A program made the translations under genes and the position numbers. Shown here in pieces: positions 2,884 to 12,069 of a stretch of 64,000 bases of DNA. This DNA comes from an uncultured Lysobacteraceae bacterium (GTDB taxonomy: Bacteria > Pseudomonadota > Gammaproteobacteria > Xanthomonadales > Xanthomonadaceae), in NCBI GenBank assembly GCA_902825775.1, contig CADECF010000012.1:62001-126000 (forward strand), in the 5' to 3' direction. Below the pieces are notes generated by a model. That model saw only the letters and a list, made by a program, of their open reading frames with translations. It made no database searches and was not told where the DNA came from. The first letter of the stretch is position 1; every line of letters starts with the position of its first letter.

Positions 2884-3022
2884 CAAGCAGCGCGACTCGC
2901 GCGCTCATCGTCGTTAGGGCCAGGGACGGCCCGCTTTTTCCCGAGATTTTCCGGTAACGCAACAGGGCATCGCCGGTTCCCCCGCGTCGTCGATGCCTCC
3001 ATCACCCCTGGAGAGAGATGCA

Positions 3023-4870
3023 ATGTCCAAGAAGTCCTTACGCACCACCTCGTGCCTGCTCGCCATCGCCGTTGCGATGGCGACGCCATTGACCTTCGCC
3101 GCAGGCAAGGCGCCGTTGCGCGCCGTCGCTGCGGCCGCGACGCCGGATCCGGATGCGCGCATCGACCGGCTCATCGTCCGCTACCGTTCCGGCGCCATCG
3201 AACGCAGCAACAAGCAGCGCCTGGTCGGCGCCGTGCAGTCGGCGTTGAACCGTTCCGGCATCGCCGCGGCCGGCAGCGCATCCGTGCAGTACGTGCGCAA
3301 GACAGCCACCGGCGCGGACGTGGTCAAACTTTCGCGCAAATTCGACCGCGCCAGCGCGGACGCGTTGATGCGCACGCTCGCCGCCGATCCGTCCGTGGCC
3401 CATGTCGAACCGGACCGGCGCGCCTTCATCACCGGCCAACCGCTGCGCGCCACCGTCGCAAAGACTTCGGCGACGCCCACGCTGACGCCGGACGACGAAT
3501 ACTTCGCGCAATACCAGTGGCATCTGCATCATCCGACCGGCGGCATCAACGCACCGTCGGCCTGGAATTCGTCGACCGGCGAAGGCGTGGTGGTGGCGGT
3601 GCTCGATACCGGCGTCGCCGATCATGAGGACCTCAACGACAACGTGCTCGAAGGCTACGACTTCATCACCGATCCGTTCGTCTCGCGTCGCGAAACCGCC
3701 GATCGCGTGCCGGGCGCGCACGACTACGGCGACTGGAACGACGACGGCAGTCAGTGCCCGGTGCGTCCCAGCAGCTTCCACGGTACGCACGTGTCCGGTA
3801 CGGTCGCGGAACTGACCAACAACGGCATCGGCATGGCCGGCGTCGCGCACCACGCCAAAGTGTTGCCGGTGCGCGTGCTCGGCCGTTGCGGCGGTTACAC
3901 GTCCGATATCGCCGACGCCATCGTCTGGGCTTCCGGCGGCGCGATCGACGGCGTCCCGGCCAACGAGAATCCGGCCGAAGTGATCAACCTCAGCCTGGGC
4001 GGCAACGGCGCTTGCACGGCCGGCTCCGAATACCAGCTCGCGATCGACCAGGCCATCGCCAACGGCACCACGGTCGTGGTCGCAGCCGGCAACAGCAACG
4101 TCAACATGTCCAACTTCAGTCCCGCCAGCTGCGCCGGCGTGATCGCGGTGGGTGCGACGCGTGTCACCGGCGGCAAGGCCGACTATTCCAACTTCGGCAC
4201 CGGCGTCGATCTGTCCGCGCCGGGCGGCGGCGGCGCGATCGACGGCAATCCCAACGGTTACGTCTGGCAGAACATCAACGACAGCGAAACCGCGCCGGAA
4301 GAAGGCACGCAAACTTATATGGGCATGACCGGTACGTCGATGGCCGCGCCGCACGTCGCCGGCGTGGTCGCACTGGTGCAAAGCGTCGCCGAAACGCCGC
4401 TGACGCCGGCCGCGATGGAAACGTTGCTGAAGGAAACCGCGCGTCCGTTCCCGGTCAGCATCCCCGGCAGCACGCCGCTGGGCGCAGGCATCGTCGACGC
4501 CGAAGCCGCGTTGGGCGGCATCGTTCCGCCATGCGAAGGCGACGAATGCACGCCCGATGCGACGCCGATCGTCAACCGTTCGCCGGTCAGCGGCCTGATG
4601 GGCGACAAGGACGCCGAACTGCTGTTCTCGCTGGACGTGCCCGCAGGCGCCAGCGGCCTCAGCTTCATGACCTACGGCGGATCGGGCGACGTGACGATGC
4701 TGGTGAGCTTCGCCGCGGAACCGGCAACGGACGACTACGACTTCCGCTCCACGCGTCCCGGCAACAACGAACGCATCAACATCGCCGCACCGAAGGCGGG
4801 CACGTATTACATCAAGCTGGTAGGCGTGGCCAAGTTCGCGAAGGTGACGTTGGAAGCGCGGCATAACTGA
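3023..4870 (+). CDS. Secreted subtilisin-like serine protease (peptidase S8) with C-terminal PPC domain
   Basis: An extracellular S8 endopeptidase of 615 aa. The ATG at 3023 is chosen because a GGAGAGAG ribosome site sits just upstream and a clean signal peptide follows (MSKKSLRTT, then a hydrophobic core ending at TFAAGKA). An in-frame ATG at 2993 would put ten charged residues ahead of it. Residues ~30-145 look like an I9-type propeptide. The catalytic triad is Asp195 (VLDTGVAD), His253 (HGTHVSG) and Ser439 (GTSMAAPHVAG). The last ~100 residues resemble a bacterial pre-peptidase C-terminal (PPC) domain, common in exported proteases. It follows the adhesin gene in the same direction by ~140 bp, so the two could be co-expressed; whether it processes the adhesin is only a guess. 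Confidence 0.95.
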   Translation: MSKKSLRTTSCLLAIAVAMATPLTFAAGKAPLRAVAAAATPDPDARIDRLIVRYRSGAIERSNKQRLVGAVQSALNRSGIAAAGSASVQYVRKTATGADVVKLSRKFDRASADALMRTLAADPSVAHVEPDRRAFITGQPLRATVAKTSATPTLTPDDEYFAQYQWHLHHPTGGINAPSAWNSSTGEGVVVAVLDTGVADHEDLNDNVLEGYDFITDPFVSRRETADRVPGAHDYGDWNDDGSQCPVRPSSFHGTHVSGTVAELTNNGIGMAGVAHHAKVLPVRVLGRCGGYTSDIADAIVWASGGAIDGVPANENPAEVINLSLGGNGACTAGSEYQLAIDQAIANGTTVVVAAGNSNVNMSNFSPASCAGVIAVGATRVTGGKADYSNFGTGVDLSAPGGGGAIDGNPNGYVWQNINDSETAPEEGTQTYMGMTGTSMAAPHVAGVVALVQSVAETPLTPAAMETLLKETARPFPVSIPGSTPLGAGIVDAEAALGGIVPPCEGDECTPDATPIVNRSPVSGLMGDKDAELLFSLDVPAGASGLSFMTYGGSGDVTMLVSFAAEPATDDYDFRSTRPGNNERINIAAPKAGTYYIKLVGVAKFAKVTLEARHN

Positions 4871-4882
4871 TCGAAGCTGCCC

Positions 4883-4908
4883 GCAGGTCCCGGTTCGCCG
4901 GGGCCTGC
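4883..4908 (+). terminator. Hairpin downstream of the subtilase gene
   Basis: An 11-bp stem (GCAGGTCCCGG with CCGGGGCCTGC, one G-T pair) closes a TTCG tetraloop 12 bp after the protease stop codon. There is no clear T-run after it, so it may stabilise the mRNA end or act as a weak terminator. Confidence 0.5.
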
Positions 4909-4923
4909 AGGCATCCGATTCTT

Positions 4924-5103
4924 GTAGGAGCGACTTCAGCCGCGAATTCTTCAGCTATTCGTGGGAGCGGCTTCAGCCGCGAGCTCTTCAGTTGTCATCC
5001 CGAGCGTAGCGAGGGATCTACTCCACGAAGTAATGCGACCTTTCCTCCAAGCAGGAAAAACGGCAAGAAAGCATCAAGAGCTCGCGGCTGAAGCCGCTCT
5101 CAC
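4924..5103. repeat. Dispersed palindrome family A: two direct copies and one inverted copy
   Basis: Copies of the element built on GGAGCGGCTTCAGCCGCGAG occur at 4924-4948 and 4961-4985 (forward) and 5079-5103 (inverted). The spacer 4990-5078 also holds a CCCGAGCGTAGCGAGGGATC-type repeat. The same family recurs near 17.9, 32.8, 46.5, 59.9 and 63.4 kb. It fills the gap between convergent genes and marks the distal border of the small-gene cluster. Confidence 0.85.
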
Positions 5104-5128
5104 AGACCAGCCGACGCCACGGTGGCCA

Positions 5129-5605
5129 TCAGCGCCTGTTATCCGCGCCGGCGCAAACATTGTTGGCATGCCGTACCGTCAGGCGCCATTTCCCGTCGCG
5201 GAGCATCCAGATGTTCGTGTACCGGCGTTGCAGCGTCTTCCCGGCATTGGGCGCGCCGGCCGCGGGCACGACGACTTCGCCGCCCATGACCACGACCATG
5301 TCTTTGAAGAACAGGAACTTCTCGGGGTGCCGTTCGAAAGACGTATAGCGGATGACGCCTTGATCGATGAGATCGAGCAGTTCCTTCTTCTCCTTCACGA
5401 TCCTGTTCGTCGGGTGATTCACCGTGACATCGTCGTCCATGAGTGCGTCGAGCGCCTTCGCATCCCCATGGAAGATCGCAGCGGCGTGCGCAAGATCAAG
5501 TTCGCGTATTTCCTTCTCGAGCGCTGGGTTCGGCATCGAGTCTTGCGCGGCGGCGGCCGCGCTCGAAAGCAGTGCCGCGAGTAAGAACGCTATTCGGATT
5601 TTCAT
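5129..5605 (-). CDS. Exported NTF2-like (SnoaL/DUF4440-type) protein
   Basis: A 158-aa protein with an N-terminal signal peptide (MKIRIAFLLAALLSSAAAAAQ) and an NTF2-like fold typical of DUF4440/SnoaL-like domains: an N-terminal helix (EKEIRELDLAHAAAIFHGD), LMDDDVTVNHP, and a C-terminal strand set (RRYTNIWMLRDGKWRLTVRH). The ATG at 5605 is preferred over one at 5683 because the signal peptide begins there. Such domains bind small ligands or serve as steroid-isomerase-like enzymes; no substrate can be given. It is the last gene of a minus-strand run with two VOC genes and the cassette array; no attC site is visible around it. Confidence 0.75.
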   Translation of the reverse strand: MKIRIAFLLAALLSSAAAAAQDSMPNPALEKEIRELDLAHAAAIFHGDAKALDALMDDDVTVNHPTNRIVKEKKELLDLIDQGVIRYTSFERHPEKFLFFKDMVVVMGGEVVVPAAGAPNAGKTLQRRYTNIWMLRDGKWRLTVRHANNVCAGADNRR

Positions 5606-5707
5606 GGGCTCGCCTATGCAGGAAATCGAACGTCGACAAGGGATTCCCTCAGTGCAACGGAGCGAGTGCTTCCGGCCGGCCATTTTCGCTATGCGATGGC
5701 GCTTGCT

Positions 5708-6088
5708 TCAGTCCATCTTCTCCGTCGCCACTCCGAAGCAATGGGAGTGCCCGTCGTCGTCGGTGACGAAGAATTCGGTCTGCCCGTAGTCGCGATCTGC
5801 GAGTTCCGAGACGGCATAGCCGATCCGCTGCAATCGCGCCCTGAGCGCATGAATGTCGCCGGGGGCCCAATAAAGCCGGATGCCTTCGTAGTTTTCCGGC
5901 GTATCGGACGCGCCGGTCCGCTGGTTGAGCCAGAAATAGAGATGCTCGTTGTGGACCATGCAACCGATCAGCCGTCCATCCTGCCGCATCGCCCGATCCA
6001 TGGTGAGGCCGAGCCCCTCGACCCAGAAGCGCAGGCTCTTTTCGAGATCCGCGCTGGGAATGACCGGCATGCACGACGCGATCGACAT
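5708..6088 (-). CDS. VOC (glyoxalase/bleomycin-resistance) superfamily protein
   Basis: A 126-aa single-domain vicinal-oxygen-chelate protein. It has paired beta-alpha-beta modules: an N-terminal CMPVIPSADLEKSLRFWVEG stretch, a middle HLYFWLNQ strand, and a C-terminal TEFFVTDDDGHSHCFG segment that in the family supplies metal or ligand contacts. Members bind or detoxify small molecules, including bleomycin-like drugs and glyoxal adducts; this one cannot be assigned a substrate. It starts 9 bp after the stop of another VOC gene, so the two are probably co-transcribed and are distant relatives. Confidence 0.8.
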   Translation of the reverse strand: MSIASCMPVIPSADLEKSLRFWVEGLGLTMDRAMRQDGRLIGCMVHNEHLYFWLNQRTGASDTPENYEGIRLYWAPGDIHALRARLQRIGYAVSELADRDYGQTEFFVTDDDGHSHCFGVATEKMD

Positions 6089-6097
6089 CGGTGCGCG

Positions 6098-6466
6098 CTA
6101 CAGTGCCTGGCCGAAATACAAGGTATGGCTCTGGTCGTCCTTGATCACGAATTCCCTCGTGTTCCACGGGGTCTCATGAACGTCGCTGACGAAAGCAACG
6201 CCATTCTCCTTTAAGCGAGCGGCGACGGCTTCGATCTCGCTCGTCTCGAAGTAAAGGTGAAAGTGCCCGCCTTCGTCCACGTACTCGATGGAGGGGTCGG
6301 CGTCGTCCACCTGCTTGAGATGAAAGACCTGTTGCCCGGAACGGACACCGGCGTAGAAGTCCTGGTACTGGAACTCGAGGCTCATCCCCAGCTTGGTCGT
6401 GTAGAAGCGAACGGACGACGCCAAGTCCTGGGTGCGCAACTGCGGCACTATGCGCGAGATCGTCAT
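6098..6466 (-). CDS. VOC (glyoxalase/bleomycin-resistance) superfamily protein
   Basis: A 122-aa VOC-fold protein. The order is an N-terminal VPQLRTQDLASSVRFYTTKL module, a central FHLYFETSEIEAVAARLKEN strand-helix, and a C-terminal FVIKDDQSHTLYFGQ strand. It probably works as a dimer. The start ATG follows a strong AAGGAGG ribosome site that overlaps the degenerate right end of the neighbouring attC-like site, so the gene sits directly behind a recombination junction. It is followed after 9 bp by a second VOC gene. Substrate unknown; sugar-, antibiotic- or aldehyde-binding are all possible for this family. Confidence 0.8.
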   Translation of the reverse strand: MTISRIVPQLRTQDLASSVRFYTTKLGMSLEFQYQDFYAGVRSGQQVFHLKQVDDADPSIEYVDEGGHFHLYFETSEIEAVAARLKENGVAFVSDVHETPWNTREFVIKDDQSHTLYFGQAL

Positions 6467-6473
6467 GGTCCCT

Positions 6474-6532
6474 CCTTAGCTATCGATCGAGCCGGCGCGG
6501 GAAGCGGGTTCGGATCGAATGAATGGTCAGAC
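6474..6532 (-). other. attC-like integron recombination site (site 5, degenerate)
   Basis: Read on the minus strand it begins with GTCTGAC (R'' box), continues with CATTCATTCGATCCGAA, has a GC-rich central palindrome and ends with GCTAAGG in place of GTTRRRY. Length (59 nt) and left half match the four sites upstream. The degenerate right box overlaps the ribosome site of the following VOC gene. Confidence 0.65.
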
Positions 6533-6537
6533 GGGTG

Positions 6538-6972
6538 TTATACGCGCTCATGGGACACGGCAACGGTGTAATCGGACTGCAAGACCGCGGTTCGGAAGGC
6601 GGGAAGCGCTTCCACGGCATCGAAGAACGCGTCCGCGGTGGGGTAATCGAAAGACCAGAGCATCGCTTCCACGCCATTCAGCGCGCCGGTCGGCGGGCAA
6701 GTCAATTCGCAGTGCAGTTGTTCGAAATGGTCGTGCTCTCCGTCCGAATCGCTGAATCCGAACTGGCACACAGGATCAAAGTAGAAGAGAGGTTTTCCAG
6801 TGAAGTCGTACGTTCCGACCTGGAAGAGAAGACCCACGCTCTCCGGCCCGAAAACTTCCCGGCCATACTCCTTGAACGCCGACCAAGCGGCCAGTGCCGA
6901 CACAGGGCTTGCGATCGCCCCATGCGCTTCTAGCAAGGCCCCGAGTCGCTTTGCTTGAGGAGTGCTGGGCAC
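6538..6972 (-). CDS. Cassette-encoded protein of unknown function
   Basis: A 144-aa soluble protein starting with GTG after an AGGAGG ribosome site that overlaps the right end of attC-like site 4. No signal peptide or membrane segment. Features are an acidic, aromatic-rich middle (GLLFQVGTYDFTGKPLFYFD, then DSDGEHDHFEQLHCELTCPP) and a C-terminal segment with two ADAFFDAVEAL-like helices. I do not recognise the family. Its stop codon lies 5 bp from the left box of attC-like site 5, the one-ORF-per-attC arrangement of an integron cassette. Confidence 0.7.
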   Translation of the reverse strand: MPSTPQAKRLGALLEAHGAIASPVSALAAWSAFKEYGREVFGPESVGLLFQVGTYDFTGKPLFYFDPVCQFGFSDSDGEHDHFEQLHCELTCPPTGALNGVEAMLWSFDYPTADAFFDAVEALPAFRTAVLQSDYTVAVSHERV

Positions 6973-6983
6973 GTGGATAGTCC

Positions 6984-7040
6984 TCCTACGCCAGAGTTAA
7001 GCCGCCGCGAAGCGGATTCGGCTTGAATGAACAGTCAACC
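6984..7040 (-). other. attC-like integron recombination site (site 4)
   Basis: On the minus strand: R'' box GGTTGAC, TGTTCATTCAAGCCG, central stem with CGCTTCGCGGCG, GGCTTAACTCTGGCG, then a degenerate right box CGTAGGA. 57 nt. The stop codon of the preceding gene (7035-7037) lies inside the R'' box, as is common for gene cassettes. Confidence 0.75.
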
Positions 7041-7457
7041 CTCGCCCGGGATACCCGAGGCGGCCATACTTGTGTGAACTAGGATGTCTGCAATCTTCCA
7101 CGCGCCAGATTGCTTCTGAAGAAGCAATTGAATCTGAAGGCGGGATCCGTCGTTTAGCGCGACGCTAGGCCTAACTCCACCTTGGCCTCTACCAACCCAG
7201 AAATCGGAGAAGTTGTCGATGGCAAGAATTTTCCGTAACCCGTTGCTTGCAAGGAATGTCTCGAACTGTGAGGGCGGAACGGAAGCGGATAGCGGCGTGC
7301 CGAGGTATCGGTAAGCAGCCACATGGTCCCCAGCGACCAAGAGACGACAGAAATCCTTTGCTGCCCGCCGCAACCCGTGAGAGCCGGCGTAAAGAAAGAC
7401 AAAGAACAGGGCAACAAAGGCAACGATGGAAAAAATGATAGTTAAGGCAATGACCAT
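7035..7457 (-). CDS. Membrane-anchored NTF2-like small protein (integron cassette)
   Basis: A 140-aa protein with an N-terminal membrane anchor (residues ~3-25, IALTIIFSIVAFVALFFVFL) and an extracytoplasmic domain that looks NTF2/DUF4878-like: AAKDFCRLLVAGDHVAAYRY near residues 33-52, FETFLASNGL in the middle, and a C-terminal LLLQKQSGAWKIADI strand. It probably faces the periplasm. It is the sole gene between attC-like sites 3 and 4, and its stop codon overlaps the next attC, so it is a self-contained cassette. Function unknown. Confidence 0.75.
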   Translation of the reverse strand: MVIALTIIFSIVAFVALFFVFLYAGSHGLRRAAKDFCRLLVAGDHVAAYRYLGTPLSASVPPSQFETFLASNGLRKILAIDNFSDFWVGRGQGGVRPSVALNDGSRLQIQLLLQKQSGAWKIADILVHTSMAASGIPGEG

Positions 7458-7472
7458 TGCGATCCCTATGAG

Positions 7473-7529
7473 GCCTAACGCCTGAATTAAGTGCCGCTAT
7501 GCGGTTTAGGTTTGAATGAACTGTTAGGC
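7473..7529 (-). other. attC integron recombination site (site 3, best preserved)
   Basis: On the minus strand the site runs from GCCTAAC (R'') to GTTAGGC (R'), exact reverse complements of each other. Between them are AGTTCATTCAAACC, a central CCGCATAGCGG stem and CTTAATTCAGGC. 57 nt. It matches the RYYYAAC...GTTRRRY architecture of attC sites and resembles attC sites I recall from Xanthomonas integrons. Confidence 0.9.
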
Positions 7530-7532
7530 GCG

Positions 7533-7964
7533 CTAGTCGACGACGCTGAGCTTGACCTGCGCGCCATCTGGTAGGGCCATAATTTGCTTGGCGATGCGGC
7601 CCGAGGCCGACACAAGCCCGCCGAGCGAGATGGTAGCGAGATTATCGCCGCCATACTCGCCACCAAGCGTGCCGGGTATCTTGAAGCAGTATTTGAAGCC
7701 CGGCCGGAGCGGGCCTAGGCGCTCCCGAGCTTGTTGCGCCAGTTCCGTCATGTGCCAGTCGCGCAAGAAATTTTGATCTTGCAAGAGCTGGTCGAGTTCG
7801 GCTTTGGAGTTTGCAATGACCTTGCAGTACAGGTCCTCGGGGCAGAGGCGCCAGTAACGGCCGCTTTGGTCCTTAATCACCAGGTTTCCGAAATCGTTGT
7901 CCCCGACGATCTGGTCCGGTTTAAGCCCGGTCCAGCCCCATGCATCCTTAACGACCTGCTGCAT
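7533..7964 (-). CDS. DUF1851 / T6SS immunity protein Tdi1 C-terminal domain-like protein (integron cassette)
   Basis: A 143-aa soluble protein: GWTGLKPDQIVGDNDFGNLV, then YWRLCPEDLYC, a helix with FLRDWHMTELAQQARERLGP, then CFKIPGTLGGEYGGDNLATI and a C-terminal ALPDGAQVKLSV. This pattern matches what I know as DUF1851, the C-terminal domain of the Tdi1-type type VI secretion immunity proteins, which also occurs alone. It has no signal peptide and should be cytoplasmic. No cognate toxin gene is adjacent; the flanking attC sites show it moves as an individual cassette. An orphan immunity gene is a reasonable inference, but not proven. Confidence 0.75.
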   Translation of the reverse strand: MQQVVKDAWGWTGLKPDQIVGDNDFGNLVIKDQSGRYWRLCPEDLYCKVIANSKAELDQLLQDQNFLRDWHMTELAQQARERLGPLRPGFKYCFKIPGTLGGEYGGDNLATISLGGLVSASGRIAKQIMALPDGAQVKLSVVD

Positions 7965-7976
7965 AGCTTACATGGC

Positions 7977-8036
7977 ACCCAACGCCTGAATTAAACCGAG
8001 CCGCCCAAGGCGGACTGGCATGATGAATTGTCAGGC
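7977..8036 (-). other. attC integron recombination site (site 2)
   Basis: Minus strand: R'' GCCTGAC, AATTCATCATGCC, central GTCCGCCTTGGGCGG stem, CTCGGTTTAATTCAGGC, R' GTTGGGT (fits GTTRRRY). 60 nt. It separates the two-gene cassette from the DUF1851 cassette. Confidence 0.85.
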
Positions 8037-8038
8037 CC

Positions 8039-8371
8039 TTACAGCAGAGGCCTATACGCCTTGACAAGCTTGCCATATCGGCGAGCGGCCCAGACGCCAA
8101 GTGGGAGGCCAAGGACATACGCGGCTAGTAGCGTAAGTGCTAGCCATGGGCTGTTGGGCGGCACGAGGTGAAAAAATGCCACCGCCAGCAGAAGAACAAG
8201 GCTCGGCGCAATAGTTAGCAAAAGCGTCTTGCGGCTCAGCATGTTTTCGCCTCTGCACAGACCGCAGTGATGCGTCTCAGGAAATTTTGATGGAACAAGA
8301 TCCCAATTCGTTATACGGAAGGGCACGTTGCAGTGTGCGCAGGTGAAATCTGGCAGCGACCGACGCTGCAC
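8039..8371 (-). CDS. Small zinc-ribbon membrane protein (second gene of a two-gene cassette)
   Basis: A 110-aa protein. The GTG start at 8371 directly abuts the stop of the preceding lipoprotein gene, so translation is probably coupled. The N-terminal ~40 residues hold two Cys pairs (CAHC and CGLC, with HHC just before the second), a likely zinc ribbon. Two membrane segments follow (TLLLTIAPSLVLLLAVAFF and LALTLLAAYVLGLPLGVW). The C-terminus is short and basic. Function unknown. The gene ends 2-3 bp from attC site 2. Confidence 0.7.
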   Translation of the reverse strand: MQRRSLPDFTCAHCNVPFRITNWDLVPSKFPETHHCGLCRGENMLSRKTLLLTIAPSLVLLLAVAFFHLVPPNSPWLALTLLAAYVLGLPLGVWAARRYGKLVKAYRPLL

Positions 8372-8782
8372 TTATGGCATCTCCACACAGCGTCGCACAT
8401 CCTGGATCTCCCCAGACCAAAGACCTAGATGGCCACGGCTGGCCCCTGTAAATCTACCCTCTACCAGAGCGTAGGCGGTATTGAACGGCTTTCCGCTTCG
8501 TGAAACACAGATGCCAGAGTCGAGCCAAAGGCCGTTAGACCTAATGCGGTGCTCATGATCCTCACGGTGCAAATAGATAGCGCTGCTCTCGAACTCGCGA
8601 TGGATAAATCCGTGAGTACGGATGAGCTTGCCCTCATATTTATCTGGCTCTGCGATGAGCTTGATAAGCGAGGTGGTGTCAATCTCGCTTGAATCAGGCG
8701 CGGATGCAGACGCAGACGTGGATGCGGGTTGAGAACACCCGGGTAGCGTCAAAGAGAACAGCAATATCCAACAATAGTTCAT
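8372..8782 (-). CDS. Putative lipoprotein of unknown function (first gene of a two-gene cassette)
   Basis: A 136-aa protein with a lipoprotein signal (LFSLTLPGC, lipid attachment at Cys16) and a Ser/Ala-rich linker. The domain contains LIKLIAEPDKYEGKLIRTHG, then ESSAIYLHREDHEHRIRSNG, followed by a conserved-looking Trp and Cys pair. Proteins with a YxGKxxRxxGxxxxEFE...YLxxED layout recur among gene cassettes as I remember them; the fold looks like a small beta-barrel. It probably sits in the periplasm or outer membrane. No function can be stated. Confidence 0.7.
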   Translation of the reverse strand: MNYCWILLFSLTLPGCSQPASTSASASAPDSSEIDTTSLIKLIAEPDKYEGKLIRTHGFIHREFESSAIYLHREDHEHRIRSNGLWLDSGICVSRSGKPFNTAYALVEGRFTGASRGHLGLWSGEIQDVRRCVEMP

Positions 8783-8785
8783 GGT

Positions 8786-8845
8786 ACCAAGCGCCTGAAT
8801 TAAGCCGGCCCGCGAAGCGGCCTCGGCTTGAATGAATTGTTAGGC
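8786..8845 (-). other. attC integron recombination site (site 1)
   Basis: Minus strand: R'' GCCTAAC, AATTCATTCAAGCCG, central GGCCGCTTCGCGGGCC stem, GGCTTAATTCAGGC, then GCTTGGT as a two-base variant of GTTRRRY. 60 nt. Confidence 0.85.
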
Positions 8846-8858
8846 AGCGGCCCAAAGA

Positions 8859-9155
8859 CTACGAACATTTGCATGGTGACCGCTTTCTGTGGAGTGGCTC
8901 TACCGTACAACGACCAAGCAATCTGGATCGTTTTATCAGAATTACCTCACCAAGCTCAGATGGAGGCGGCGATTGCAGCTTGCACGAGCCCGTTCCTCCG
9001 CCAGTACAACAAGTAACATAGAGGACTCTATTTCCCTGGATAGTTCTTGGGTAAACACGATTTTCAATCAGCTCAGGCGGTAGAGCACGATCTGCCATCA
9101 ATATCAGAGCGGCCAAGGCTCCAAGACCAATTAGGGTTGTGAGCAACATTTTCAT
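8859..9155 (-). CDS. Small membrane-anchored protein of unknown function (first cassette)
   Basis: A 98-aa protein starting MKMLLTTLIGLGALAALILM, one N-terminal membrane segment followed by a cysteine-containing, basic C-terminal domain (YVTCCTGGGTGSCKL, RSRLLGRC, SPCKCS). The ATG at 9155 is preferred over 9215 because the hydrophobic segment begins there and the longer form would cross the upstream core site. I do not recognise the family. The final Cys-rich tail could bind metal or form disulfides in the periplasm. It lies between the upstream core site and attC site 1. Confidence 0.55.
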   Translation of the reverse strand: MKMLLTTLIGLGALAALILMADRALPPELIENRVYPRTIQGNRVLYVTCCTGGGTGSCKLQSPPPSELGEVILIKRSRLLGRCTVEPLHRKRSPCKCS

Positions 9156-9178
9156 GTAGCGGTAATCTTGAACAAGCT

Positions 9179-9196
9179 GCCTAACTACAATTAGGC
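9179..9196 (-). other. Upstream boundary of the cassette array: isolated core site
   Basis: Minus strand GCCTAATTGTAGTTAGGC: a consensus GTTAGGC core preceded, 4 nt away, by its near-complement GCCTAAT. It could be the core of an attI site whose integrase has been lost, or an attC that lost its central palindrome. No integrase ORF lies between it and the DUF1415 gene (9312). Confidence 0.6.
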
Positions 9197-9311
9197 CCTC
9201 GCCGGGGCATAGCACCTATCGTCTGCTTCCGTTCGTGCTCGGTCAATAAGCCAACGAAATCATACGTTTGGCGAACCGGATGTCGTTATTTCGCCGCATA
9301 ACCCTCTTGCG

Positions 9312-9863
9312 CTATTCGCCTTGCTCAACAATGCGGCGCCAGCCCTCGTGCCCAAGCCGCGTCAACGTTTCGATATTGCGATCGACGATCGCATCCGGAT
9401 CCGGAAACGCATCCACCGCACGCGCCACGCTGTCTTCGCGCAGCAGATGCAAAGTGGGATAGGGCGAGCGGTTGGTGTAGTTGGCGATGTCGTCCGGCTC
9501 GCTGCCGGCGAACTGGTATTGCGGGTGGAAGCTGGCGACTTGCAGCACGCCGTCCAGCGCCATCGATTCGACCAGGCCGTCGGCCAGGTCGAGGAAGTCG
9601 TTGTAGTCGAGGAAGTCGGTCAGCACTTGCGGATGCACGATCAGGGTCGTGTCGATCTGTTCGGCGGGCATGTCGCGCAGCAGCGCAAGTTCCTCGCCCA
9701 GCGTTTGCAATAGATCTTCCGGCGTGGAAGCTTCGCTCAGCACGAAGCGCACTTGCTGCTTGGCGACCACGGCTTTGGCGAACGGGCACAAGTTGAGGCC
9801 GATCACCGCCCGCTGCAGCCAATGCTGCGTGGCGGCGATCGGATCCTGCGGATCGGCGGACAT
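9312..9863 (-). CDS. DUF1415 family protein
   Basis: A conserved 183-aa cytoplasmic protein of unknown function. Diagnostic features are an N-terminal TQHWLQRAVIGLNLCPFAKA, the central DTTLIVHPQVLTDFLDYNDF, and FHPQYQFAG followed by NRSPYPTLHLLRE near residues 110-140. The single conserved Cys in NLCPFAK is a candidate functional residue. It lies 21 bp downstream of the yajQ stop, in the same direction, and could be co-transcribed with it. It is the chromosomal neighbour immediately upstream of the cassette array. Confidence 0.85.
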   Translation of the reverse strand: MSADPQDPIAATQHWLQRAVIGLNLCPFAKAVVAKQQVRFVLSEASTPEDLLQTLGEELALLRDMPAEQIDTTLIVHPQVLTDFLDYNDFLDLADGLVESMALDGVLQVASFHPQYQFAGSEPDDIANYTNRSPYPTLHLLREDSVARAVDAFPDPDAIVDRNIETLTRLGHEGWRRIVEQGE

Positions 9864-9884
9864 CGTGTCGTGGCCGTGCGTCGA

Positions 9885-10367
9885 TCAGTCGCGGAAATTG
9901 TTGAACTGCAGCGGCAGGCCGAAGTCGCTCTTGCGCAGCAGAGCCATCGCCGCTTGCAGGTCGTCGCGTTTCTTGCCCATCACGCGCAGCTTGTCGCCGT
10001 TGATCTGAGTATCGACCTTGAGCTTGGCGTCCTTGACCGCGTTGACGATCTTTTTGGCCTGGTCGCGTTCGATGCCCTGTTTGACCTTGATCTGCTGCCG
10101 CGCGCCGGCGACGTTGGTCAGCACTTCGCCCGGCTCCAGGCAGCTGATGTCGATCTTGCGCGCGATCAGCCGGTTGCGCAGGATGTCCACCATCTGCTTC
10201 AACTGGAATTCGCTCGGCGCGGACAGCGCCACCGTGCCCTCTTCCAGCACGAACGAAGCCTCCACGCCCTGGAAATCGAAACGCGTGGTCAGCTCGCGAT
10301 TGGCCTGGTCCACGGCGTTGATCAGCTCGTGGGAGACGACTTCCGAGACGATGTCGAACGAGGGCAT
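9885..10367 (-). CDS. yajQ: YajQ family nucleotide-binding protein
   Basis: A 160-aa protein with the conserved start MPSFDIVSEV and two ferredoxin-like repeats; motifs include NRELTTRFDFQGVEA and DGDKLRVMGKKRDDLQ-like stretches near the C-terminus. The YajQ homologue of Xanthomonas campestris is a reported cyclic di-GMP-binding protein that affects virulence gene expression; that role may apply here. The start is fixed by homology, since an upstream ATG at 10424 would add 19 residues not seen in the family. The upstream small gene ends 28 bp before it. Confidence 0.92.
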   Translation of the reverse strand: MPSFDIVSEVVSHELINAVDQANRELTTRFDFQGVEASFVLEEGTVALSAPSEFQLKQMVDILRNRLIARKIDISCLEPGEVLTNVAGARQQIKVKQGIERDQAKKIVNAVKDAKLKVDTQINGDKLRVMGKKRDDLQAAMALLRKSDFGLPLQFNNFRD

Positions 10368-10395
10368 GGCGGCATGGGCGAGTGAGGGCGCGCGA

Positions 10396-10656
10396 TTATG
10401 GCAGGGCTTCGGGCCGGGCCTCAAACCGCTGCGCGTATTTGCGTTCGTCGGCGATCAATTGCACCTGCTCGTCCGACAGGTCGGGCGCGCCGTAAACCGC
10501 GTACACCAGCTCGCCGTTCTGGCGGCCCAACTGGTGTAGCCGGTAGCGCGACTGGCCGCTGCCGGTGTTGGGCGGGTAGTGCAGCGGCGCTTCGTCGCCG
10601 TCCAGATCCAGTTCGCTGTTGTCGACGGTGCCACCTACGAAAAGGGCTCGCATCAT
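10396..10656 (-). CDS. Small conserved hypothetical protein
   Basis: An 86-aa soluble protein. The ATG at 10656 follows a GGAG ribosome site at 7-nt spacing. It has no signal peptide. Visible segments are MMRALFVGGTVDNSELDLDG, a Tyr/Arg-rich middle (SRYRLHQLGRQNGELVYAVY) and an acidic helix (LSDEQVQLIADERKYAQ). The style resembles small phage-like or regulatory proteins, but I do not recognise the family. It lies 28 bp upstream of yajQ in the same direction. Confidence 0.65.
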   Translation of the reverse strand: MMRALFVGGTVDNSELDLDGDEAPLHYPPNTGSGQSRYRLHQLGRQNGELVYAVYGAPDLSDEQVQLIADERKYAQRFEARPEALP

Positions 10657-10839
10657 GCGGGTTCTCCGTGAGGATGTAGGAATCCATGATGCGATGCAGC
10701 GCGTTCGCTGCGGATGAAACATGCGTTTTAGCGGCGGAATGCTGGGTTGCGAAGGGCGCAACGCCTGACTTTCCGCCTATTGAGACGCTTGCGGGACGCC
10801 GTTAAGGTGCGACGATCGACGGGGCGAGGGGGGATGCCG

Positions 10840-12069
10840 ATGAAAGCTTGGCTGGCGATGTTGAGCCTATGTTTGGCGACGGCTCCGGCCGCGGCGCAGC
10901 CGGAACGGCCCCGGAAACCGACAGCGGAAGCCGCTACCGCCGCATTGATCGAAGGCGCCAAGGCCTCGCGCAGCGATGCGATGCTGGTGCTGCGCGACGG
11001 CAAGACCGTCGCCGAGTACTACCGCAGCGGCCAGGCGCCGGGCCCGATCGAGATGATGTCGGCGACCAAATCGATCGTGGCGCTGGCCATCGGCGGGCTG
11101 ATCGCCGACGGCAAGATCGCTTCGCTCGATGCGCCGGTGCACACCTGGTATCCGGAGTGGAAACAAGGCCGCAAACGACAGATCTCGCTGCGCATGCTGA
11201 TGGACCACACGTCCGGCCTGCAGAACGTGATGCGTGCCGACGAAGAAATCTACCCGTCGCCGGATTTCGTGCAATTGGCGTTGGCCGCGGAACTGGATAG
11301 CGATCCGGGCAAGGCTTTCGCCTACAACAACAAGGCGGTGAACCTGCTGGCCGGCATCGTCGCCAAAGCGTCGGGCGTGCCGATGGACCGGTACCTGCAG
11401 CGCAAATTGTTCACGTCGATGGGCATCCAGCCCGGCACATGGGAACGCGACAAGGCCGGCAATCCGCATGCGATGTCCGGTTTGCCGTTGCGCGCCGCGG
11501 ACGCGGCGAAACTCGGGCAATTGGTGCTGGACGAAGGCCGTTGGAACGGACAGCAGCTGTTGCCGGCCGCGTTCGTGCGCGAGATGCTCTCTGCGAGCAA
11601 ACTCGTCGGCGAAAGCGGCTTGTTGTGGTGGCGCGAGCCGGCATGGGGACGCTTCATCGCCGAGGCGGGCAGCCTCGACACCATGCGCAAGGCCGGCGTG
11701 CCGGAGGCGGTGGTGAGCAAACTGCAACCGTTGGTCGGCCGCAGTTTCGAGGGCCAGGGCGAGCTGATCCCGGCGATCGAAGCGGCGCTGGGCGAAGGTG
11801 CGATGGAGACCTGGGGCAAAGAGGTGATGTCGCGCGGGCTCAGCCCCGGCAAGATTTTCAAGATCGATATGGGTCCGATGGTGGCGTACGCGGCCAAGGG
11901 CTTCCAGGGCCAGTTCATCGTGATCGTGCCGCAGGCGCGGCTGGTGGCGGTGCGTTTGGTCGCATCGACCGATGAGTGGAAACCCAGCGACGGTTACGAC
12001 GATTTCGGCAAGCGCGTGATCGCGTTGGCCGATGCGTTGGTGTCAGGCGATTTGAAACCGCTGCCGTAG
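10840..12069 (+). CDS. Exported class C beta-lactamase-fold serine hydrolase
   Basis: A 409-aa serine hydrolase of the beta-lactamase/transpeptidase-like superfamily. The start MKAWLAM at 10840 is chosen because a GAGGGGG site precedes it and a signal peptide follows (cleavage near APAAAQ). The nucleophile motif SATK is at Ser74-Lys77, within MMSATKSIVALA, and the YxN motif is Tyr162 (FAYNNKAVN). Members include AmpC-like lactamases, D-aminopeptidases, esterases and carboxypeptidases; the substrate cannot be read from the sequence. A resistance role is unlikely to be its main function. It is divergent from the small hypothetical gene upstream. Confidence 0.85.
   Translation: MKAWLAMLSLCLATAPAAAQPERPRKPTAEAATAALIEGAKASRSDAMLVLRDGKTVAEYYRSGQAPGPIEMMSATKSIVALAIGGLIADGKIASLDAPVHTWYPEWKQGRKRQISLRMLMDHTSGLQNVMRADEEIYPSPDFVQLALAAELDSDPGKAFAYNNKAVNLLAGIVAKASGVPMDRYLQRKLFTSMGIQPGTWERDKAGNPHAMSGLPLRAADAAKLGQLVLDEGRWNGQQLLPAAFVREMLSASKLVGESGLLWWREPAWGRFIAEAGSLDTMRKAGVPEAVVSKLQPLVGRSFEGQGELIPAIEAALGEGAMETWGKEVMSRGLSPGKIFKIDMGPMVAYAAKGFQGQFIVIVPQARLVAVRLVASTDEWKPSDGYDDFGKRVIALADALVSGDLKPLP

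Follow-up and report, generated by a model that had tools for sequence, protein, structure and literature searches.

The window analysed here comprises 64,000 nucleotides of an uncultured Lysobacteraceae bacterium (G000:C12:62001-126000) and is part of a draft genome of 3.76 Mb (26 contigs, 98.7% complete). It carries an array of five integron gene cassettes on the minus strand, behind a host gene for a DUF1415 protein (9312..9863, minus strand) that forms the upstream flank; a host S8 peptidase gene (2993..4870, plus strand) forms the distal flank. The existence of the array is certain, and it very likely begins at an attI-like site, the core of which lies 126 bp from the stop codon of the DUF1415 gene. 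The G+C content from 6533 to 9178 is 0.553 versus 0.646 for the whole window, in agreement with the initial annotation of this DNA, which had described low-GC cassettes without an integrase. The closest named locus is that of Luteimonas cucumeris, with a DUF1415 protein that is 91% identical. Three congeneric genomes (G001, G002 and G003) were compared, making a genus set of four with G000; the named L. cucumeris record (L027) and contig G002:C1 match the window in the same pattern.

The attC sites were searched for with a covariance model (R1), trained on 40 sites that a motif scan had selected at other loci of the genus and family, none of them in the window. The training stem covaries, with 7 of 20 pairs changed on both sides and a covariation score reached by none of 500 shuffles; the number of further pair types was not above that of the shuffles (260/500 as high). 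Over the 64 kb window, with filters off, R1 gave five matches at E≤1 and no others, all on the minus strand and with E-values from 2e-19 to 5e-4: attC 1 at 8784..8846 (E 2.4e-19), attC 2 at 7975..8037 (E 1.2e-7), attC 3 at 7471..7530 (E 4e-13), attC 4 at 6981..7041 (E 5.1e-12) and attC 5 at 6476..6533 (E 5.5e-4). These are the five sites proposed in the initial annotation, recovered within a few bases, and a chance origin was rejected because a model trained on other loci finds them. The R boxes are decayed in the two left-most sites; attC 5 is strongly decayed and reached only E 0.03 in the whole-genome search. Folded singly as single-stranded DNA, the five sites gave modest z-scores (-0.9 to -2.3), so the evidence for them comes from the covariance model. 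The sole match of Rfam over 4500-11000 was a small nucleolar RNA model far below its cut-off. With at least two attC sites in the same orientation, R and L boxes and a covarying stem, the array belongs to the clusters of attC sites lacking an integron integrase (CALIN), as first annotated. Its attC type is common to sites of other genera in the family, which contains Xanthomonas, and to this extent the proposed likeness to a Xanthomonas integron stands; the label Xanthomonas for these sites is presumed.

The CALIN label is incomplete for the head of the array. What had been noted as an isolated core site at 9179-9196 is a genuine core, not an isolated one, being the end of a longer attI-like site without adjacent intI gene (9179..9274, minus strand). 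In the cassette direction, all on the minus strand, this site consists of a putative cassette promoter (Pc) with the -35 box TTGACC (9241..9246) and, 17 bp beyond it, a weak -10 box GACGAT (9218-9223), then a GCCC/GGGC hairpin (9195..9208), GCCTAA (9191-9196) and the crossover core GTTAGGC (R box, 9179..9185), which forms an L/R inverted repeat with GCCTAA and is followed by the first cassette. The -10 box fits the consensus at 3/6 positions and a consensus scan did not report the TTGACC/GACGAT pair; Pc activity at TTGACC-N17-GACGAT remains putative. An identical order of elements was seen, side by side, at the intI-adjacent site of G003 and ahead of a second array of G000 on contig C6.

Twenty intI-linked attI sites of the family were used to build a hidden Markov model (HMM) and a covariance model (R2). 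The stem corresponding to the window hairpin covaries in these sites: 4 of 5 pairs are changed on both sides, as reached by 2/500 shuffles, and the score was reached by 0/500. The HMM matches window 9254-9179 weakly (10 bits, E 0.18 over 368 kb; best E of the reversed control 9.1). Over 26 array loci it gave 15 matches at E≤10, two of them training rows (L160, L161); ten others precede an attC array (E 1.4e-12 to 1.3) and three do not (E 3-6). The R2 search of the four congeneric genomes gave 17 matches at E≤2, nine of them at E≤0.01. All nine precede attC arrays in the correct orientation, which leaves 7/7 when the two training rows are taken off. They include the site on G000:C6 (E 2.5e-5) and that of the window (G000:C12:71179-71274, 23.4 bits, E 0.005). 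Genome G001, in which no IntI match was found at 1e-30, has three attI sites ahead of arrays (R2 E 1.2e-11 to 1.9e-8). The score of the window site is weak, yet place, strand and architecture fit. Since the head of the array has a -35 box, a hairpin and an L/R core, and "CALIN" implies attC alone, the locus is probably an integron platform without intI and not a bare CALIN.

No integron integrase was found in the G000 draft, where the best match of TIGR02249 scored 72.9 bits against a cut-off of 265 and a query with congeneric IntI found mainly the same genes and no intI. The two G000 proteins closest to IntI are XerD and XerC, both above the cut-offs of their own models. In the family sample an IntI match at E≤1e-30 is present in 201 of 297 genomes (in 188 of these above cut-off); within the genus G002 and G003 have one and G000 and G001 do not. 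Searching the array loci by tblastn with two congeneric IntI revealed intI only at L160 and L161, besides chance-level stretches. In G003 an intI array lies between ttcA and plsB (L160 2609-11438), with intI at 10365-11375. The same locus of G000 (L252) lies on one contig with both flanks conserved, 1.08 kb between them and no intI or attI. Loss of a plsB integron of the G003 type as the direct cause was therefore rejected: the G000 locus is intact, and both loss in G000 and gain in G003 are possible.

The first cassette carries an open reading frame (ORF) of 100 aa without family match (8859..9161). Two ORFs lie between the sites at 7977 and 8786, as annotated, namely those of cassette 2 with 136 aa (8372..8782) and 110 aa (8039..8371, no match above curated cut-off). 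Cassette 3 encodes 143 aa (7533..7964) with the C-terminal domain of the type VI secretion system immunity protein Tdi1 (T6SS_Tdi1_C, PF08906, 5.6e-11). Cassettes 4 and 5 carry ORFs of 140 aa (7035..7457) and 144 aa (6538..6972), neither with a family match, and a VOC (glyoxalase-like) ORF at 6098..6466 is a probable old distal cassette; all of these lie on the minus strand. With a Pfam match above cut-off in one of the six array ORFs, the description of the ORFs as mostly of unknown function holds, and PADLOC recognised no defence genes among the six. Among the neighbouring ORFs scanned, no toxin gene was recognised for the Tdi1-type immunity ORF. The cassette signature (complementarity of R' with R'' of the cassette's own attC) is 7/7 for cassette 1, where the attI core takes the place of R', and 3, 5, 4 and 4 of 7 for cassettes 2-5, as in a decayed array. 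That only the first cassette has a perfect signature fits an array that no longer turns over.

Just past the distal end of the array lies one cluster of GTGGGAGCGGCTTCAGCCGCGA repeats. The repeat occurs at window 4924-5103 and in nine further places, with 12 matches at ≤3 mismatches where 0.01 are expected by chance, including three inverted pairs whose start positions differ by 53-59 bp. It is a REP-like dispersed element, REP being the name that we take to apply.

In genome-wide R1 searches the top 150 candidates of an initial pass were scored, which makes the counts lower bounds. Besides the window sites, R1 finds in G000 two clusters on contig C6 (149.3-158.7 kb and 8.1-9.5 kb), one lone site on C2 (81.7 kb) and three weak matches, off the known places or on the opposite strand of known sites. 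At E≤0.01 there were at least 9 matches in G001, 64 in G002 and 30 in G003, in many separate places, some of these rows being the reverse strand of one palindromic site. The first C6 cluster is a second array led by attI and without intI (L023 8810-18707, G000:C6:148.8-158.7 kb), behind a gene for a PPi-dependent phosphofructokinase (PFK). Its first four cassettes have perfect 7/7 signatures, so its last activity is probably later than that of the window array. The other C6 cluster (L024 7065-8985, G000:C6:8.06-9.98 kb) is small, with sites on both strands. To the eye its junction, GCCC-AGAGC-GGGC-ATGTAGGTTAGGC, resembles an attI, but the attI model did not recover it; the junction may represent either an attI in decay or an attG site, and the cluster could be of the attG kind.

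Both attI-led arrays of G000 recur without intI in two congeners each, the DUF1415 array in G002 and G003 and the PFK array in G001 and G003. At DUF1415 the distance from stop codon to core is about 126 bp in G000, 486 bp in G002 (with an extra gene between) and 118 bp in G003; at PFK it is about 127, 203 and 206 bp in G000, G001 and G003. Except in G002, such short distances leave little room for intI, and tblastn found no IntI at these arrays beyond chance-level stretches. Proximal cassettes are species-specific at both attI sites, and distal blocks are common to G000 and G003 at both loci; in the window this is block 6099-7037, with 69% DNA identity. The PFK loci of G001 and G003 are 84% identical from -3519 to about +28 and then diverge. 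The DUF1415 locus of G001 has no attC by motif scan, yet it contains an ORF with 40% identity over 102 aa to the 136-aa ORF of the second window cassette. Among 80 named DUF1415 loci, some of which end at contig ends, the motif scan found attC only in the congener L027. Old sequence common to distant relatives, with the same gaps kept between the same flanking genes, was thereby rejected. One weak IntI match near DUF1415 in these 80 loci (L099, 26% identity) is probably another tyrosine recombinase.

Sites of this kind also occur elsewhere in the family. A sample of 149 genomes, G000 and its congeners counted in, was scanned with R2 under stricter filters and with 26 candidates scored per genome, which again gives lower bounds. 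At least 90 of the 149 genomes have attI matches at E≤1e-3. At E≤1e-6 there are at least 106 matches, with at least 61 within 600 bp of an intI among the matches listed and 45 without a listed intI neighbour. The latter fall in 43 loci, at which tblastn with 17 IntI proteins (E≤1e-3) revealed a near-complete intI in 5, a remnant in 16 and no trace in 22. The 22 traceless loci are spread over 16 genomes, at least 11 of which have intI elsewhere among the matches listed. Downstream attC in the correct orientation were found with R1 at 20 of these 22 loci, and the other two meet a contig end within 0.5 kb. The motif TTGAC is present in 22/25 orphan attI versus 16/31 intI-linked sites; a stronger Pc in orphan attI is not claimed, since the two samples are unmatched by lineage. 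Eight ORFs from seven loci were taken as host genes at these other loci and gave Pfam matches for two (GH127, Big_5); those without a match may be wrong frames.

Two further arrangements were observed in the family. In L210 (G009) and L220 (G084), which are possibly tandem integrons, two attI point the same way at a distance of about 7.2 kb, and intI remnants are present. Two orphan attI of G074 (L214, L223) align over 239 bases (-217 to +19) with 85% identity; no similarity was detected beyond this on the upstream side, a picture that resembles the copying of a short attI unit.

At other orphan platforms, the cassette content changes exactly at attI or attC boundaries. Contigs G143:C15 and G022:C9, from one genus, are 94.4% identical from -2603 to +4; the identity ends at the attI crossover and the cassettes then differ. 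This locus shows no trace of intI, and intI is listed elsewhere in both genomes. G022:C3 and G143:C3 are 95.2% identical up to +364, where the match ends; the first attC ends at about +360. The signature of the first cassette (attI core versus R'' of its own attC) was determined at 23 orphan loci, including the window, G000:C6 and the DUF1415 locus of G002, with L232 and L237 omitted as no attC is visible there. It was 7/7 at 16 loci and 6/7 at six; the remaining locus, L248, gave 1/7, probably through a core misplaced by one base. None of 10,000 shuffles scored as high. Among the internal cassettes of the 24 arrays, 34/72 have a perfect signature. When 11 orphan attI were compared with a panel of 31 attI cores, 7 had their best match, in one case a tie, in the intI-linked attI of the same genome.

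We consider it likely that the window holds an integrase-less platform, that is, a chromosomal attI with a putative promoter and five cassettes behind DUF1415, filled in trans, with intI gone from the genome. Cassettes would have entered the window attI through an attI x attC reaction in which an IntI from another locus acted in trans, as comparison of the sequences suggests. The serving integrase would later have disappeared from this lineage, after which the array would have stayed frozen, and the first cassettes may be transcribed from Pc or via read-through from DUF1415. Filling in trans appears to account best for what the genome comparisons show.

For each locus taken by itself, the chief alternative is still that intI was lost in cis. 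By this account the window is an ordinary degraded integron, in which a full intI-attI-array behind DUF1415 was filled in cis before intI was lost without trace. Such decay does occur, as attI adjoins an intI remnant at 16/43 family loci, and loss of intI in cis must therefore be common as well. For the window it is nevertheless an unlikely history: it requires traceless loss at two loci in three species each, where the spacers measure about 118-206 bp (486 bp with an extra gene in G002), and insertion of the species-specific proximal cassettes before each loss. It is also at odds with the G022:C9/G143:C15 pair, in which the upstream 2.6 kb, 94% identical, hold no trace of intI, yet the cassettes differ.

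Together with the remnants, several observations weigh against filling in trans. The window attI is a weak match to both models and gave no row in the comparison of the core panel. The DUF1415 attI of G003 is decayed, was missed by both models and recognised by alignment only, and the spacer there aligns with that of the window at 80/128 positions only. No distal cassette block links G001 or G002 to the other genomes at DUF1415 or PFK, and the differences among proximal cassettes could partly be deletions. The contigs G022:C9 and G143:C15 stop 383 and 476 bp past attI, and the orphan attI of G002 resembles the intI-linked attI of its own genome least of all (rank 31/31). Contig G000:C2 (L163) carries a stretch with weak likeness to IntI (29% over 113 aa, E 0.009), and the one attC of that contig lies about 1.6 kb away (L163 1792-2124 and 3712-3774); the stretch is not in integron geometry and was not listed by the whole-genome IntI searches.

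That intI is present in G000 and absent from the draft assembly is improbable. With 26 contigs and 98.7% completeness a gap is conceivable, and attC repeats complicate assembly, but ttcA-plsB, the intI locus of G003, lies on one G000 contig without intI or attI, and even a missed integrase would have to serve the window attI in trans. That the cassettes went into a random attG site behind DUF1415, outside any integron, is very improbable and was rejected for the window. Cassette insertion at attG has been demonstrated in E. coli (excerpt of PMC12444791) and the junction has a GTT core, but the likeness to intI-linked attI takes in the -35 box, the hairpin and the core, and congeners too have arrays without intI at this position.

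The locus was compared with known systems. Like a CALIN in the sense of IntegronFinder, the window has several attC in a row and no intI nearby; its array differs in starting with an attI-like site that has a -35 box. CALINs have been proposed to be degraded integrons, and attI sites are poorly described and outside class 1 are not detected by IntegronFinder (PMC9024848), so that a feature such as that of the window would be missed. With the sedentary chromosomal integron of Xanthomonas, an intI-attI-array behind ilvD, the locus shares the host family, the attI/array architecture and a long-term position; it differs in lacking intI and in its place. About 50% of Xanthomonas genomes have CALINs, located at seven loci apart from ilvD; the authors contrasted this with scattered attG insertion, and the excerpts of their paper mention no attI for these CALINs (PMC12444791). 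Insertion at attG likewise puts cassettes outside the main integron, but attG sites, scattered in E. coli, are neither attI nor attC (PMC12444791), whereas the window anchor is attI-like and its position common within the genus. Cassettes of the Delta-attI type also bear a partial attI away from intI, within cassettes of mobile integrons (PMC12901181), whereas the window site heads a chromosomal array. Of the parts of a complete integron, the window very likely has attI and lacks the intI gene. A literature search of titles and opening lines of abstracts found no report of orphan attI platforms.

These data suggest that intI-less docking sites are common in related genomes and were filled remotely by an integrase whose gene lies at another locus. 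For the Lysobacteraceae as a whole we put it at even chances that integrons are multi-platform, one integrase serving several scattered attI-plus-promoter sites, each with its own array, and orphan attI being kept; as part of this, orphan attI may spread as units of about 240 bp. Hidden attI anchors would then explain the conserved positions of CALINs. If many CALINs begin with an attI filled in trans, one genome would have several promoter-driven capture sites per integrase, and cassettes could be expressed from more than one place. With the attI model, any genome of the family can be used to test this idea. A chromosome with several attI would also be predicted to undergo integrase-driven inversions between them, and attI x attI-like reactions are discussed in an excerpt of PMC10127599.

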